From: Odiellus spinosus
Lineage: Eukaryota > Arthropoda > Arachnida > Opiliones > Phalangiidae
Reading direction: 5' to 3'
Assembly (NCBI GenBank): GCA_963920705.1
Contig: OY987238.1
Span: 13,386,183-13,450,182, forward strand
DNA: 64,000 nucleotides
Shown: positions 6,051 to 62,466 of the stretch, in pieces
Layout of the letters: each line of letters opens with the position of its first letter
Numbering within the stretch: position 1 is the stretch's first letter
Position numbers and translations under genes: made by a program
The notes under the pieces: generated by a model
Seen by the model: the letters and a program-made list of their open reading frames with translations, nothing else
Database searches by the model: none
What the model was told of the DNA's origin: nothing

Positions 6051-6768
6051 GCTGAAAAGATAGTCAATATAGGAATTTTGTTTTTTGAAATGATTAGCAT
6101 GTTACGCAGCAGCTTTCCTTAAACATCAGATATTATTTTACTCTAAATATAGGCAAGTTTCGTAATGAAAAAGATACTTAACATCAGAATAGAGTAATAG
6201 ACGTAAGTCTAGGGTATTCGCGTGGGAGAACTTTCTAGGGAAAATAGGTCATGATTCGTTTTGATGATTCTCTTTATGTACTTTTTTTTGTTGTTGCTTT
6301 TTCCGGAAACAATCGAATAAAACGGTAGTCCGCGAACTATAATAAATTTTACCCATAGTTCACAGCGTTTACCAAGCTAAGCTTCTATTGTAAACACGGT
6401 TATGATTTCACATAGAGTTAGAAGGAGGTTTAGCTTCGGAACCTGTTGTAAATTTAACTTGAAATAAAAAAAATACACGGATGCGTTTTAGCCGCGTGGC
6501 AGTTAACGACCTTCTTCTATCGCCATTAGGACAGTATACGCTTTGTATATACGAGATATACAATACATTTAGTGGCATAATCGATACCAACCTTAAAAGG
6601 GACTCTTTAACAATAGAAACAAACTGATTTATCAATGGAAAAATGATTATTTTCAAAGTTGAAATTTATTGAATTTATTCAGAGACATTTAATTTTTTAT
6701 TTGAATGATGTATAAGATGTTTTCGGGGGTAATTAACAGTTTAAATATTAAGAATAATATTTAACACA
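6051..6768. other. Unassigned sequence
   Basis: No repeat family or gene recognised. The 82-codon minus-strand frame at 6408-6656 has no visible domain. Confidence 0.35.
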
Positions 6769-8022
6769 GAGAAAAGTTACGGCCCTTTTAAGATAGGGGT
6801 CATTTTTGGGGTTTTTGTTAAATTTATATCGATTGGCGAAACATCTTTTATGAGTGGCGAAACAAAATTTTATTATTTTAAAATAATCTATGGAATGTCT
6901 ACTTTCTAATGGTGCAATCGGTTTATGCCTAGGTGGTCTTGGAGAAAAGTTACGGCCCTTTTAAGATAGGGTCATTTTTGGGGTTTTTGTTAAATTTATA
7001 TTGATTGGCGAAACATCTTTTATGAGTGGCGAAACAGAATTTAATTATTTTAAATTTATCTAGGGAATGTCTACTTTCTAATGGTGCAATCCGTTTATGC
7101 CTAGGTGGTCTTAGAGAAAAGTTACGGCCCTTTTAAGATAGGGGTCATTTTTGGGTTTTTTGTTAAATTTATATGGAGTGGCGAAACATCTTTTATGAGT
7201 GGCGAAACAAAATTTTATTATTTTAAAATAATCTAGGGAATGTCTACTTTCTAATGGTGCAATCGGTTTATGCCTAGGTGGTCTTGGAGAAAAGTTACGG
7301 CCCTTTTAAGATAGGGTCATTTTTGGGGTTTTTGTTAAATTTATATTGATTGGCGAAACATCTTTTATGAGTGGCGAAACAGAATTTAATTATTTTAAAT
7401 TTATCTAGGGAATGTCTACTTTCTAATGGTGCAATCCGTTTATGCCTAGGTGGTCTTAGAGAAAAGTTACGGCCCTTTTAAGATAGGGGTCATTTTTGGT
7501 TTTTTTGTTAAATTTATATGGAGTGGCGAAACATCTTTTATGAGTGGCGAAACAAAATTTTATTATTTTAAAATAATCTAGGGAATGTCTACTTTCTAAT
7601 GGTGCAATCGGTTTATGTCTAGGTGGTCTTAGAGAAAAGTTACGGCCCTTTTAAGATAGGGTCATTTTTGGGTTTTTTGTTAAATTTATATGGAGTGGCG
7701 AAACATCTTTTATGAGTGGCGAAACAAAATTTTATTATTTTAAAATAATCTATGGAATGTCTACTTTCTAATGGTGCAATCGGTTTATGTCTAGGTGGTC
7801 TTAGAGAAAAGTTACGGCCCTTTTAAGATAGGGGTCATTTTTGGGTTTTTTGTTAAATTTATATGGAGTGGCGAAACATCTTTTATGAGTGGCGAAACAA
7901 AATTTTATTATTTTAAAATAATCTATGGAATGTCTACTTTCTAATGGTGCAATCGGTTTATGTCTAGGAGGTCTTAGAGAAAAGTTAGGACCATTTCAAG
8001 ATAGGGGTCATTTCGGGAATTT
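6769..8022 (+). repeat. Satellite, 172/173-bp monomers in a dimeric higher-order array
   Basis: Units start GAGAAAAGTTACGGCCCTTT at 6769, 6942, 7114, 7287, 7459, 7632 and 7804, with a partial diverged unit from 7977 to about 8022. Lengths alternate 173, 172, 173, 172. Units 2 and 4 are almost identical and carry variants (CAGAATTTAATTATTTTAAA, CAATCCGTTT) absent from units 1, 3 and 5, so the recent amplification unit was a dimer of about 345 bp. Each monomer contains GTGGCGAAAC twice. No coding frame spans it. Confidence 0.95.
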
Positions 8023-26193: not shown

Positions 26194-26322
26194 TTAAAGA
26201 GAAAATGCAACCTAACGTCAGTTTCTTATCGTTTAAAAAGTCCTAATTCAATTACAATCAAATATTAAAACTAGAAATAAATTTAAAACTTAACATCAAA
26301 ATAGGCTTAGCTGGATTCAAAT
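26194..26322 (+). mobile_element. MITE family E, left half leading into a minisatellite
   Basis: Starts TTAAAGAGAAAATGCAACCT, continues through TTTCTTATCGTTTAAA and CAAATATTAAAACTAGAAAT to AATAGGCTTAGCTGGATTCA, and at that point passes without a break into the 40-bp array. No right half with TGAATCCAGCTAAGCC is found after the array. Confidence 0.8.
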
Positions 26323-26960
26323 TTCCCTAGATTAATTTCCAAATTTCCCAGATTATTCAAATTTTCCTAGATTAATCTCCAAGTTTCCCAGATTATTCAA
26401 ATTTCCCTAGATTAATTTCCAAGTTTCCCAGATTATTCAAATTTCCCTAGATTAATTTCCAAGTTTCATAGATTATTCAAAATTCCCTAGATTAATTTCC
26501 AGGTTTCCCAGATTATTCAAATTTCCCTAGATTAATTTCCAAGTTTCCCAGATTATTCAAATTTCCCTAGATTAATTTCCAAGTTTCATAGATTATTCAA
26601 ATTTCCCTAGATTAATTTCCAAGTTTTCCAGATTAGTCAAATTTCCCTAGATTAATTTCCAAGTTTCCCAGATTATTCAAATTTCCCTAGATTAATTTCC
26701 AAGTTTCCCAGATTATTCAAATTTCCCTAGATTAATTTAGAATTTTCCCAGATTAGTCAAATTTCCCTAGATTAATTTCCAAGTTTCCCAGATTAGTCAA
26801 ATTTCCCTAGATTAATTTCCAAGTTTCCCAGATTGTTCAAATCTCCCTAGATCATATTCCAAGTTTATTTAGATTAATTTCCAAGTTTCCCAGATTGTTC
26901 AAATCTCCCTAGATCATATTCCAAGTTTATTTAGATTAATTTCCAAGTTACCTAGATTTC
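26322..26960. repeat. Minisatellite, 40-bp unit (CAAATTTCCCTAGATTAATTTCCAAGTTTC..)
   Basis: About 16 units of ATTCAAATTTCCCTAGATTA followed by ATTTCCAAGTTTCCCAGATT. Each unit is itself two related halves (TTTCCCTAGATTA / TTTCCCAGATTAT), so it grew from a 20-bp repeat. The last units carry an insertion (CATATTCCAAGTTTATTTAG) that is itself duplicated. The array begins exactly at the family E signature. Confidence 0.95.
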
Positions 26961-27650: not shown

Positions 27651-28240
27651 ATGTTAAGTCTAATTCTCTAAATCTTTAAGATAAGCCCTAATTCTTTAGA
27701 AGATATAAGCCTAATTCTTCCGAAGTTAAGCCTAATTCTTCCGAAGCTAAGCTTAATTCTTCTGAATCCAAGCATAATTCTTCTGAATCCAAGCATAATT
27801 CTTTAGAAGCTGTAAGCCTAATTCTTCCGAAGCTAAGCCTAATTCTTCCGAAGCTAAGCCTAATTCTTCCGAAGCTAAGCCTAATTCTTCCGAAGCTAAG
27901 CCTAATTCTTCCGAAGCTAAGCCTAATTCTTCCGAAGCTAAGCCTAATTCTTCCGAAGCTAAGCCTAATTCTTCCGAAGCTAAGCCTAATTCTTCCGAAG
28001 CTAAGCCTAATTCTTCCGAAGCTAAGCCTAATTCTTCCGAAGCTAAGCCTAATTCTTCCGAAGCTAAGCCTAATTCTTCCGAAGCTAAGCCAAATTCTTC
28101 CGAAGCTAAGCCAAATTCTTCCGAAGCTAACCCTAATTCTTCCGAAGCTAACCCCAATTCTTCCGAAGCTAACCCCAATTCTTCCGAAGCTAAGCCTAAT
28201 TTTTAAGAATCCAAGCCAAATTCTTTCGAATCTAAGCCTA
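27651..28240. repeat. Minisatellite, 21-bp unit (GAAGCTAAGCCTAATTCTTCC)
   Basis: At least 22 units, the central 16 almost identical; edge units vary (AAGCATAATTCTTCTGAATC). Because 21 is a multiple of three and the unit lacks stops in two minus-strand frames, it creates open frames of 279 and 141 codons repeating GRIRLSF and EELGLAS. No codon-level constraint is visible (changes fall at any position), so these are not called as genes. Confidence 0.95.
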
Positions 28241-28249
28241 ATTCTTCCT

Positions 28250-55908: not shown

Positions 55909-55917
55909 CGTCTCTAC

Positions 55918-55921
<4 letters not shown>
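55909..55921. repeat. Target-site duplication of the SINE, copy 1
   Basis: CGTCTCTACGTTT; repeated exactly at 56243-56255. It abuts the T run that is the SINE tail complement. Confidence 0.9.
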
Positions 55922-55948
<27 letters not shown>

Positions 55949-56242
55949 CGGCGTGTAACGTAACGTCTTTACGCCCGGACAGCGGCCGCGATTGCGAACC
56001 AGGTGTGGCGCCAAGGCGTAAGGCCTTGAGCAACTCAGTGATGGTAAGTAACTACGCAGGGATGAGGACTGGGAATTGCCCACGCCACGGAAGGAGATGG
56101 GAATGGGGAAGAGGAAGGACCATTCCGTCGCGGACCATTCGCAACACTCCCTATGGGCAAGGGACCTGCGATTCGAGCAGGACAACACCCAGACCTTGCC
56201 ACTGAGACGCCAGTTTACAGGAGTGCGCCACCACTCCCGGCA
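55922..56242 (-). mobile_element. SINE with 7SL-like head, poly-A tail and 13-bp target duplication
   Basis: Minus-strand, about 321 bp, ending in about 28 A (plus-strand T run up to 55948) and bounded by a perfect 13-bp duplication, the hallmark of LINE-driven retroposition. The head (from 56242) reads TGCCGGGAGTGGTGGCGCAC. Nucleotides 6-23 form a 6-bp stem GGAGTG/CACTCC with loop GTGGCG, followed by TGTAAAC; the 5' hairpin of animal 7SL RNA, as I recall it, has GGCGCG/CGTGCC, the same GTGGCG loop and TGTA. At nt 62-78 CCTGC-TCGAATC-GCAGG resembles a tRNA T-arm or Pol III B box. The body is markedly G+C-rich. Open frames on both strands (55849-56288) are shadows. Family identity is unknown. 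Confidence 0.85.
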
Positions 56243-56255
56243 CGTCTCTACGTTT
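56243..56255. repeat. Target-site duplication of the SINE, copy 2
   Basis: CGTCTCTACGTTT, exact copy of 55909-55921. The intact duplication suggests a young insertion. Confidence 0.9.
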
Positions 56256-56369: not shown

Positions 56370-56581
56370 TAGACTTTTTGCTGCGCCTTATGAAGGGGGC
56401 GGCCATTTTGCCCGTTCCCCTTAGTTCGCCCCCCCAATCCGCCATTTTGGTAACCCAGAAACGAGTAGACAGAGCCACTACCACCTCGTTTCTGGGTGAC
56501 CAAAATGGCGGATTGGGGGGTCGAAACTAAGGGGAACGGAAAAAATGGCAGCTCCCTTCATAAGGCGCGGCAAAAAGTCTA
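56370..56581. mobile_element. 212-bp hairpin MITE (TA-flanked)
   Basis: TAGACTTTTTGCTGCGCCTT and AAGGCGCGGCAAAAAGTCTA are the tips; the arms then pair nearly throughout, through GAAGGGGGCGGCCATTTTG.. / ..AAAATGGCAGCTCCCTTC and CCAATCCGCCATTTTGGT / ACCAAAATGGCGGATTGG, leaving a centre of about 25 bp between two CAGAAACGAG/CTCGTTTCTG arms. TA tips suggest a mariner-like origin. It contains the YY1-like word GCCATTTTGG in both arms. Confidence 0.9.
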
Positions 56582-56765
56582 TATATTGTGTATAATTAAT
56601 GAAACTTACGAATTGAAATTTAATTATAAAATATAAACAAAATTATATTAATAATAATAATATTATTGATAATAATAATGATAATATTAATATTAATAAA
56701 AGGAAATCACAAATAAATAAATACAGAATATTTGTTTGACTTGATCAAAGTATTGATCGAAGATT

Positions 56766-61225: not shown

Positions 61226-61787
61226 CATGACGTCATAATTCAGCTTTTGATAAGGTTAAAAAAAAATCGAAAATAAAAATATTTATATTGTAATGAAATA
61301 AAAAAATATATGTATTAAATATAATTAAATTAAATTTGAAGTCCTCAACCCTTTAAAAGATATTTCCAGTAATTGAAAGTTGCCCCAAGAGATTGCAACG
61401 ACCCGATTTCTTTACGCAGAGATAGTTTTAGTTACAGTTTCAGTTTGCAGCGACTGCAAAGCTATGGATTTGCTGTTAGGTTAAAATTTTATTTAAGCGC
61501 CTTCACCCAATTCCTCAGAATGAAAAGATGTTAAAGTATTAGTTAAAAGCATATATGAAGCTCGGCCTTATATCTAACCTTTTGAGCCTTCTACTCTATT
61601 GAGTCTATTTCATTGGACAGAGAATACGTTCACAAGTGTAAGTGTTTGGTTCGATAATTGATTAAAAGAACGTAAAAGTTAAAAACAATTTCTGATTTTA
61701 TTATAAGGTTAGTAATTAAATCTTCCGTTAAAATGATTAAACATTACAATTAAAACTATTTTAATATCACAATTAATATCTCAATAC
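61226..61787. other. Unassigned sequence
   Basis: No recognised repeat or gene before the array; the last 50 bp already contain CAATTAATATC..ACTGATTAAATATCA words grading into it. Confidence 0.3.
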
Positions 61788-62466
61788 TGATTAAATATCA
61801 CGATTATACTGATTAAATCGCGATTAGACTGATTAAATATCACGATTAAACTGATTAAATCGCGATTAGACTGATTAAATATCACGATTAGACTTACTAA
61901 ATCGCGATTAGACTGATTAAATCGCGATTAGACTGATTAAACCGTGATTAGACTTATTAAATTGCGATTAGACTGATTAAATCGCGATTAGACTGATTAA
62001 ATCGCGATTAGACTGATTAAATCGCGATTAAACTGATTAAATCGCGATTAGACTGATTAAATCGCGATTAGACTGATTAAATCGCGATTAGACTGATTAA
62101 ATATCGCGATTAGACTGATTAAATCGCGATTAGACTGATTAAATATCGCGATTAGACTGATTAAATCGCGATTAGACTGATTAAATCGCGATTAGACTGA
62201 TTAAATCGCGATTAGACTGATTAAATCGCGATTAGACTGATTAAATCGCGATTAGACTGATTAAATCGCGATTAGACTGATTAAATCGCGATTAGACTGA
62301 TTAAATCGCGATTAGACTGATTAAATCGCGATTAGACTGATTAAATCGCGATTAGACTGATTAAATCGCGATTAGACTGATTAAATCGCGATTAGACTGA
62401 TTAAATCGCGATTAGACTGATTAAATCGCGATTAAAATGATTACATCGCGATAAAACTGATTAAAT
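61788..62466. repeat. Minisatellite, 20-bp unit (ATTAAATCGCGATTAGACTG)
   Basis: About 33 units. The first third mixes ATATCACGATTA and ATCGCGATTA variants; the last two-thirds are almost perfectly homogeneous. Every standard unit contains the 10-bp palindrome AATCGCGATT, giving one CpG-containing TCGCGA site per 20 bp, i.e. about two helical turns. Confidence 0.97.

Follow-up and report, generated by a model that had tools for sequence, protein, structure and literature searches.

Short interspersed elements (SINEs) of the SINE1 type carry a head derived from 7SL RNA, the RNA of the signal recognition particle (SRP). In passages of Kojima 2020 (PMC7245038) the hagfish SINE1 is called the first evident SINE1 outside Euarchontoglires, the 7SL repeats of marsupials and guinea pig being less certain, and a passage of PMC10886601 restricts the known occurrence of SINE1 to primates, rodents and hagfishes as of 2024. 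No arthropod 7SL SINE family was found in the titles and abstract beginnings of the open-access literature; Repbase, Dfam and SINEBase were not searched. Here we describe an element at positions 55,922–56,242 of a 64,000-nucleotide stretch of contig OY987238.1 (the window), which very probably belongs to a SINE superfamily with recent activity, with a 7SL head most likely taken from its own lineage, and which appears to represent an independent lineage of the SINE1 type.

Among the nearest described counterparts in organization is the hagfish family SINE1-1_EBu (passages of PMC7245038), which likewise combines a head from the 7SL 5′ domain, its Alu fold kept by compensatory changes, with loss of the S domain, a non-7SL tail, young age and target-site duplications (TSDs). 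The hagfish family ends in AAC repeats and has TSDs of ~17, whereas the present element has an A-tail, mostly 13–14-bp TSDs and an arthropod host; it also differs in at least three interchangeable tails, two of which (A and B) have a covarying hairpin, and in that no match to a long interspersed element (LINE) was found. Alu and B1, the SINE1 elements of Euarchontoglires, resemble it in the 7SL Alu-domain head, A- and B-box-like sequences, A-tail, absence of an internal terminator, and TSDs. Unlike in these, nucleotides (nt) 45–292 are not recognisably 7SL, the 3′ hairpin is conserved and the host belongs to another phylum; the first and last of these differences rule out membership of the Alu/B1 lineage. 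Tu-type SINEs of tree shrew and GarnAlu of bushbaby are also chimeras of a 7SL part and other SINE parts, according to passages of PMC7245038, however, theirs contain tRNA-derived parts and ARAGORN found none here. Alu-like elements have been claimed in arthropods before, i.e., Alu in 48 genomes, validated with a primate AluJo profile (Petersen 2019, PMC6327564), but TSDs, a comparison with host 7SL and an arthropod family consensus are absent from the passages covered of that report. With respect to the features of SINE1, the present family has a 7SL-derived head, has kept the Alu fold, has lost the S domain, and is mobile and multi-copy with TSDs; by analogy, the head would also bind SRP9/14.

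An SRP Alu domain related to host 7SL RNA

The element lies on the minus strand, with its body (nt 1–292) at 56241–55950. The body is followed by a G at 55949 and an A-tail (55948–55922 unambiguous), and a single extra nucleotide (56242) separates the GCCGGG start from the TSD AAACGTAGAGACG, an exact 13-bp repeat that reads CGTCTCTACGTTT on the plus strand at 55909–55921 and 56243–56255. The GC content is 59.6% in the body compared with 34.8% in the flanks. The poly-A tail, 13-bp TSD, stem GGAGTG/CACTCC, loop GTGGCG and TGTAAAC on which the initial annotation of a young SINE with a 7SL-like head was based are all present. The parts of the element are as follows.

56243–56255, minus strand: 5′ target-site duplication AAACGTAGAGACG; exact 13-bp repeat
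56198–56241, minus strand: 7SL-derived Alu 5′ domain, nt 1–44, with helices 2 and 3 (H2, H3), TGTAA turn and helix 4 (H4); from RF00017, host 7SL identity and pair counts
56220–56230, minus strand: A-box-like TGGCGCACTCC, nt 12–22; position from the fold, motif by resemblance to the Alu A box
56183–56196, minus strand: helix 5 (H5), 5′ strand, nt 46–59; from the RF00017 alignment and minimum-free-energy pairing with nt 164–177 (p at least 0.89 per pair)
56165–56181, minus strand: B-box-like CCTGC-TCGAATC-GCAGG, nt 61–77, box at nt 64–72; from the fold of the window copy
56079–56164, minus strand: segment replacing the S domain, nt 78–163; no significant BLAST similarity to host 7SL
56065–56078, minus strand: helix 5, 3′ strand, nt 164–177; from the RF00017 alignment and the fold
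55950–56046, minus strand: tail A, nt 196–292; swapped for tail B or C in sister families
55950–55975, minus strand: 3′-terminal hairpin GGCGT..ACGCC, nt 267–292; same shape in tail B with double changes
55922–55949, minus strand: G plus A-tail; from the sequence
55909–55921, minus strand: 3′ target-site duplication; exact 13-bp repeat

The window copy matches the covariance model RF00017 (Metazoa_SRP) with 42.2 bits (E 1.5e-9 on 551 b, 1.7e-7 on 64 kb). The alignment spans H2, H3, the UGUAA turn, H4 and both strands of helix 5, and comprises 98 nt of the element where the model has 217 positions, the S domain being deleted. The first 182 nt, folded without constraint, assume the same H2/H3/H4/H5 layout (z -2.4; 2 of 200 shuffles as good), the whole 292 nt fold at only z -1.6 (14 of 200 shuffles as good), and all 14 H2–H4 pairs are standard. 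Applied to further copies, the model matches 22 SINE copies in 20 of the 20 copy-bearing loci first tested, below its curated cut-off, and 7 of 8 further loci, tail-B and tail-C copies included. The Alu-domain secondary structure is kept in the SINE head.

The host's own 7SL genes were identified by a search with RF00017 of the assembly to which the window belongs (443,074,358 b, 286 contigs), where 26 of 2,761 candidates were scored and all 26 exceed the cut-off with 202–228 bits. Nucleotides 1–27 of the SINE are identical at 24 of 27 positions to 24 of these 26 genes, and nt 1–44 at 33 of 44 (75%) to 25 of them. Of the outcomes that the initial annotation named as refuting it, one alone is observed, and in part: plain similarity to host 7SL declines beyond about nt 44, with pairing running on through helix 5. 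The H3 stem GGGAGT..ACTCC of the SINE recurs in 25 of 26 host 7SL genes and differs from the human and Rfam consensus stems; the difference from human, previously read as covariation within the SINE, is therefore inheritance. True double changes are located in H2 and H4, where both members of pairs 3-42, 28-41, 30-39 and 31-38 are different bases in the SINE and in most host genes, with pairing retained. Positions 10 and 17, which do not pair in any of the 26 host genes, form a G-C pair in the SINE. Double changes affect 4 of the 14 Alu-domain pairs over seven distinct sequences, a count reached by 1 of 500 shuffles and compared with 0–1 in slid controls. Covariance model, copies and host 7SL genes together uphold the young SINE with an SRP Alu-domain head that had been proposed.

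As to the 7SL genes themselves, 24 of the 26 scored form a tandem array at C4:16573823–16627040 (L065–L088) with steps of mostly 457 bp or multiples thereof, and two are dispersed; such an arrangement of 7SL genes in tandem seems uncommon.

The host is an arthropod as judged by its (TTAGG)n telomeres, found at 8 of 20 contig ends (2 of 20 consist of N only). Its mitochondrial genome (C286, 16,074 b; L062, L106) uses the invertebrate code and has cox1 and cox2 adjacent, trnL2 before nad1, and trnQ/trnI near trnL1. With trnL2 before nad1 it has the arrangement ancestral to arthropods, which insects and crustaceans do not share, and the mitochondrial gene order likely points to a chelicerate or myriapod.

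Insertion hallmarks and interchangeable tails

A 37-mer of the head, with at most three mismatches, occurs 162 + 174 = 336 times in the genome, and the reversed control pattern 0 times. The genome search lists 42 copies at 98–100% identity (40 of 420 candidates scored). In a sample of 55 tail-A copies, biased toward copies near that of the window, 52 cover nt 1–292, one begins at nt 2, and two are 5′-truncated at nt 15 and 17 and have TSDs; substitution divergence from the consensus, subject to the same bias, has a median of 0.7% and a maximum of 1.4%. Subfamilies are distinguished at positions 156, 178, 202, 256 and 295, and the copy at L100 also carries a deletion. A script assigned TSDs of at least 11 bp to 36 of the first 42 copies (17 at 13 bp, 10 at 14 bp), two of these 36, in a tandem at L025, being inflated by the A-tail; six copies score a TSD of 4–5 bp only, three of them copies on C17 that share one flank. 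In 35 of 36 the TSD begins with A, a figure that is partly ambiguous owing to the A-tail. The mostly 13–14-bp TSDs, the A-tails and the 5′ truncations indicate target-primed reverse transcription, i.e., insertion driven by a LINE, and the family is a young, multi-copy, mobile SINE. Searches for empty sites with joined flanks returned only self-matches around the L025 tandem and one flank match within L014. No copy outside the host appeared in the genome-contig scan, and the viral-contig scans gave one 18-base match (L001), which is taken for chance.

Some insertion sites deserve separate mention. At L025:1033–1990 (C8:20192504–20193489) three head-to-tail SINE copies of differing subfamilies (tail, mismatches) have a single 13-bp TSD in common, as would result from repeated use of one target site. 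Near-identical TSDs AGAGATTTGRCTC occur at L003, L013, L023 and L104 (C14, C13, C17 and C3), which suggests that these copies inserted at a single position within a repeat. At L052–L054 (C17:7933684, 7954384 and 7979169) the last 14 nt of the 5′ flank are alike, there is no TSD and the copies are ~21–25 kb apart, which is probably the outcome of local duplication.

The head and body are joined to different tails. Pattern searches of the genome count 185 tails A and 42 tails B (controls 0) versus 336 heads. Six loci first viewed from the head search (L121–L126) are ordinary tail-A copies, and of eight more, selected for the lack of a listed exact tail A nearby, one has tail A with a mismatch, five have tail B (one shortened) and two have tail C. 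These eight have ~nt 1–195 or more in common, with small gaps, and with tail C the match extends to nt 218. When eight loci were picked by tail B alone, seven proved to bear a little-changed head, and the eighth (L137) matches from nt 154 onward only; the tail-B head consensus equals the window head over nt 1–44. There are at least three tail families on one head and body. In the seven tail-B-chosen copies no greater conservation of the head than of the body is seen (9 differences from the consensus in 308 head positions, 27 in 1,018 body positions); L127 (chosen by head) and L137 (matching only from nt 154) contributed rows to the consensus and are left out of these counts. For the eight loci from the head search, head conservation is not usable, an exact match to the head having been the basis of their selection.

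Although unlike in sequence, tails A and B both end in a two-part terminal hairpin of one shape, with stems of 5 bp and 4 bp around an AAA/AC internal loop, followed by CCG(A/T)(T)AAAA. Over tail A and all 19 distinct tail-B forms listed, 94.4% of the hairpin cells pair, and double changes occur in 4 of 9 pairs, a value as high in 2 of 500 shuffles and compared with 0 or 1 in slid controls. A covarying 3′ hairpin is what a hairpin-recognising LINE would select. In the partner search, 150 RVT_1 matches were scored of 2822 candidates, and the best alignment (E 0.056) is one of 13 bases between tail C and L120, a stretch upstream of a LINE. An apparently intact LINE lies on C2 at ~26,575,192–26,580,401 (L119, L107; covered except for 26577401–26578926), with a DUF4780 ORF1, an endonuclease, a reverse transcriptase in a 1213-aa open frame, RNase H, an A-tail and a 12-bp TSD AACCTACTGTTA; its target duplications are SINE-like, but its 3′ end is another.

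The window contains other repeats besides the SINE. A palindromic element resembling miniature inverted-repeat transposable elements (MITEs) adjoins the SINE at 56375–56582 and gives spurious microRNA family matches below the cut-off. Another MITE-like repeat of ~340 bp with terminal inverted repeats is present at 2125–2461 and in 10 other places, making 11 near-complete copies in 64 kb that are 92–97% identical to the first. Satellite arrays are numerous, with units of 20–173 bp at 6768–8013, 26315–26866, 27678–28248 and 61786–62466. Ten open reading frames of the window gave nothing above the cut-off against Pfam and one weak match under it.

Weighing the 7SL origin

Several results count against a 7SL-headed SINE born in this lineage. 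The SINE copies score 36–43 bits on RF00017, under the curated cut-off of 70, which might be expected of elements devoid of the S domain. In the whole-window scan, microRNA families reach similar E-values (1.7e-7, 8.3e-7 and 1.5e-6) on the neighbouring palindrome; these matches are surely spurious, and the RF00017 E-value alone is therefore not decisive, the copies and the host 7SL genes being what decides. Seven of 14 prokaryote control genomes match RF00017 below the cut-off and none above, presumably through related SRP RNAs. One locus with an intact head (L129) has no RF00017 match, and partial matches in L020, L100 and L134 place the 3′ strand elsewhere. Strong resemblance to host 7SL reaches no further than nt 27, and a modest one continues to nt 44; for nt 45–292 BLAST gives nothing significant against the three host 7SL genes compared, so that helix 5 could be new pairing. 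Further pair types in the head are not unusual (52 of 500 shuffles as high), and the head covariation amounts in effect to one comparison of two lineages, the 7SL genes being near-identical. The B-box hairpin is not formed in the tail-A consensus fold. With regard to the LINE partner, 12 stretches downstream of LINE reverse transcriptase domains contain no matching tail, and an A-tail follows the open reading frame in only 3. Finally, the Rfam consensus, at 23/27 and 32/44, is about as close to the head as host 7SL is.

This last point, together with the single animal genome covered by the search, leaves some room for the most probable of the rival explanations, namely that a 7SL SINE reached this genome by ancient common descent or by horizontal transfer from another animal and was not born in the arthropod lineage. 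We regard it as unlikely, given that the head has the H3 stem GGGAGT..ACTCC of 25 of 26 host 7SL genes and not that of the Rfam consensus, and that the element has an A-tail, whereas the hagfish element, partnered by an RTE, carries AAC repeats (passages of PMC7245038). Birth in the arthropod lineage, independent of Alu, is what we infer.

A tRNA-derived SINE (SINE2) whose head drifted toward 7SL is a very improbable source, and bears on the promoter-like boxes. The A-box-like TGGCGCACTCC at nt 12–22 resembles the Alu A box, and GCTCGAATC at nt 64–72 resembles the B box GWTCRANNC; in four aligned tail-B copies it reads GATCGAATC, a full match to the B-box consensus. The B-box-like TCGAATC lies within a 5-bp hairpin off helix 5 in the fold of the window copy (p ~0.8), and the A-to-B spacing of ~52 nt is in the tRNA range, both of which would suit a SINE2. 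The 5-bp stem is, however, shifted by one register relative to a true T-arm, the aligned tail-B copies no longer have its closing pair, and the hairpin is missing in the tail-C copy L132 as well as in the consensus fold; moreover, the model match is to SRP RNA and most host 7SL genes agree with the head start at 24/27. ARAGORN found no tRNA in the window, and the Rfam covariance scan of 551 b and of the 64 kb gave no tRNA family. The T-arm/B-box-like sequence of the initial annotation thus stands as a B-box-like sequence, at nt 61–77 of the body, and falls as a T-arm, and the tRNA chimera it had considered is not supported in view of the ARAGORN result, the stem register, the loss of the closing pair in the aligned tail-B copies, and the absence of the hairpin from one tail-C copy and the consensus fold.

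Least probable is a 7SL retrocopy (pseudogene), one-off or repeated, joined to unrelated sequence by template switching and not part of a mobile family: it would account for the 7SL-derived 5′ end, A-tail and TSD, and small-RNA retrocopies are known (passages of PMC7245038), but there are 336 heads, three tail families, low divergence, a uniform chimeric structure with subfamilies over the tail-A copies examined, and many independent insertions with distinct TSDs, and the head is just 75% identical over nt 1–44 to the host 7SL genes scored, from which it follows that the copies derive from SINE copies and not from those genes. A plain 7SL pseudogene was rejected on the absent S domain (98 nt versus 217 model positions) and nt 45–292 being devoid of a 7SL match, and a single-copy one on copy number.

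Proposed mobilization and implications

For the 7SL-headed SINE lineage that we favour, the following course is proposed. Transcription would be by RNA polymerase III and would depend on the two box-like sequences (A and B) close to the 5′ end. Runs of T on the sense strand do not exceed 2, so that there is no internal terminator, as expected of a polymerase III transcript. The head, as the model, the fold and the compensatory changes show, folds into the SRP Alu domain and, as in Alu, would probably bind SRP9/14 and dock on the ribosome beside a translating LINE. The LINE enzyme may recognise the 3′ hairpin, which covaries, together with the A-tail, and inserts the copy by target-primed reverse transcription, to which TSDs, A-tails and 5′ truncations attest. 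Tail swapping has given rise to at least three families with one head.

The wider proposition is that this is the third independent birth of a 7SL SINE and the first documented outside vertebrates, with the SRP Alu fold kept while the tails exchange LINE-recognition modules; we see the case for and against it as evenly balanced. Human Alu is among the 7SL SINEs, and their accepted origins so far are two, both vertebrate (passages of PMC7245038 and PMC10886601). An active arthropod lineage with a different tail logic would make it possible to ask what favours the SRP Alu fold. Should selection also act on the fold where the LINE recognises a hairpin, ribosome docking would matter independently of the LINE, and if the proposition is true, docking through SRP9/14 would be a general need for SINE success whatever the LINE clade, and not a peculiarity of L1. 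The family would also offer an arthropod system for SINE birth and tail exchange, with the 7SL genes at hand for comparison.
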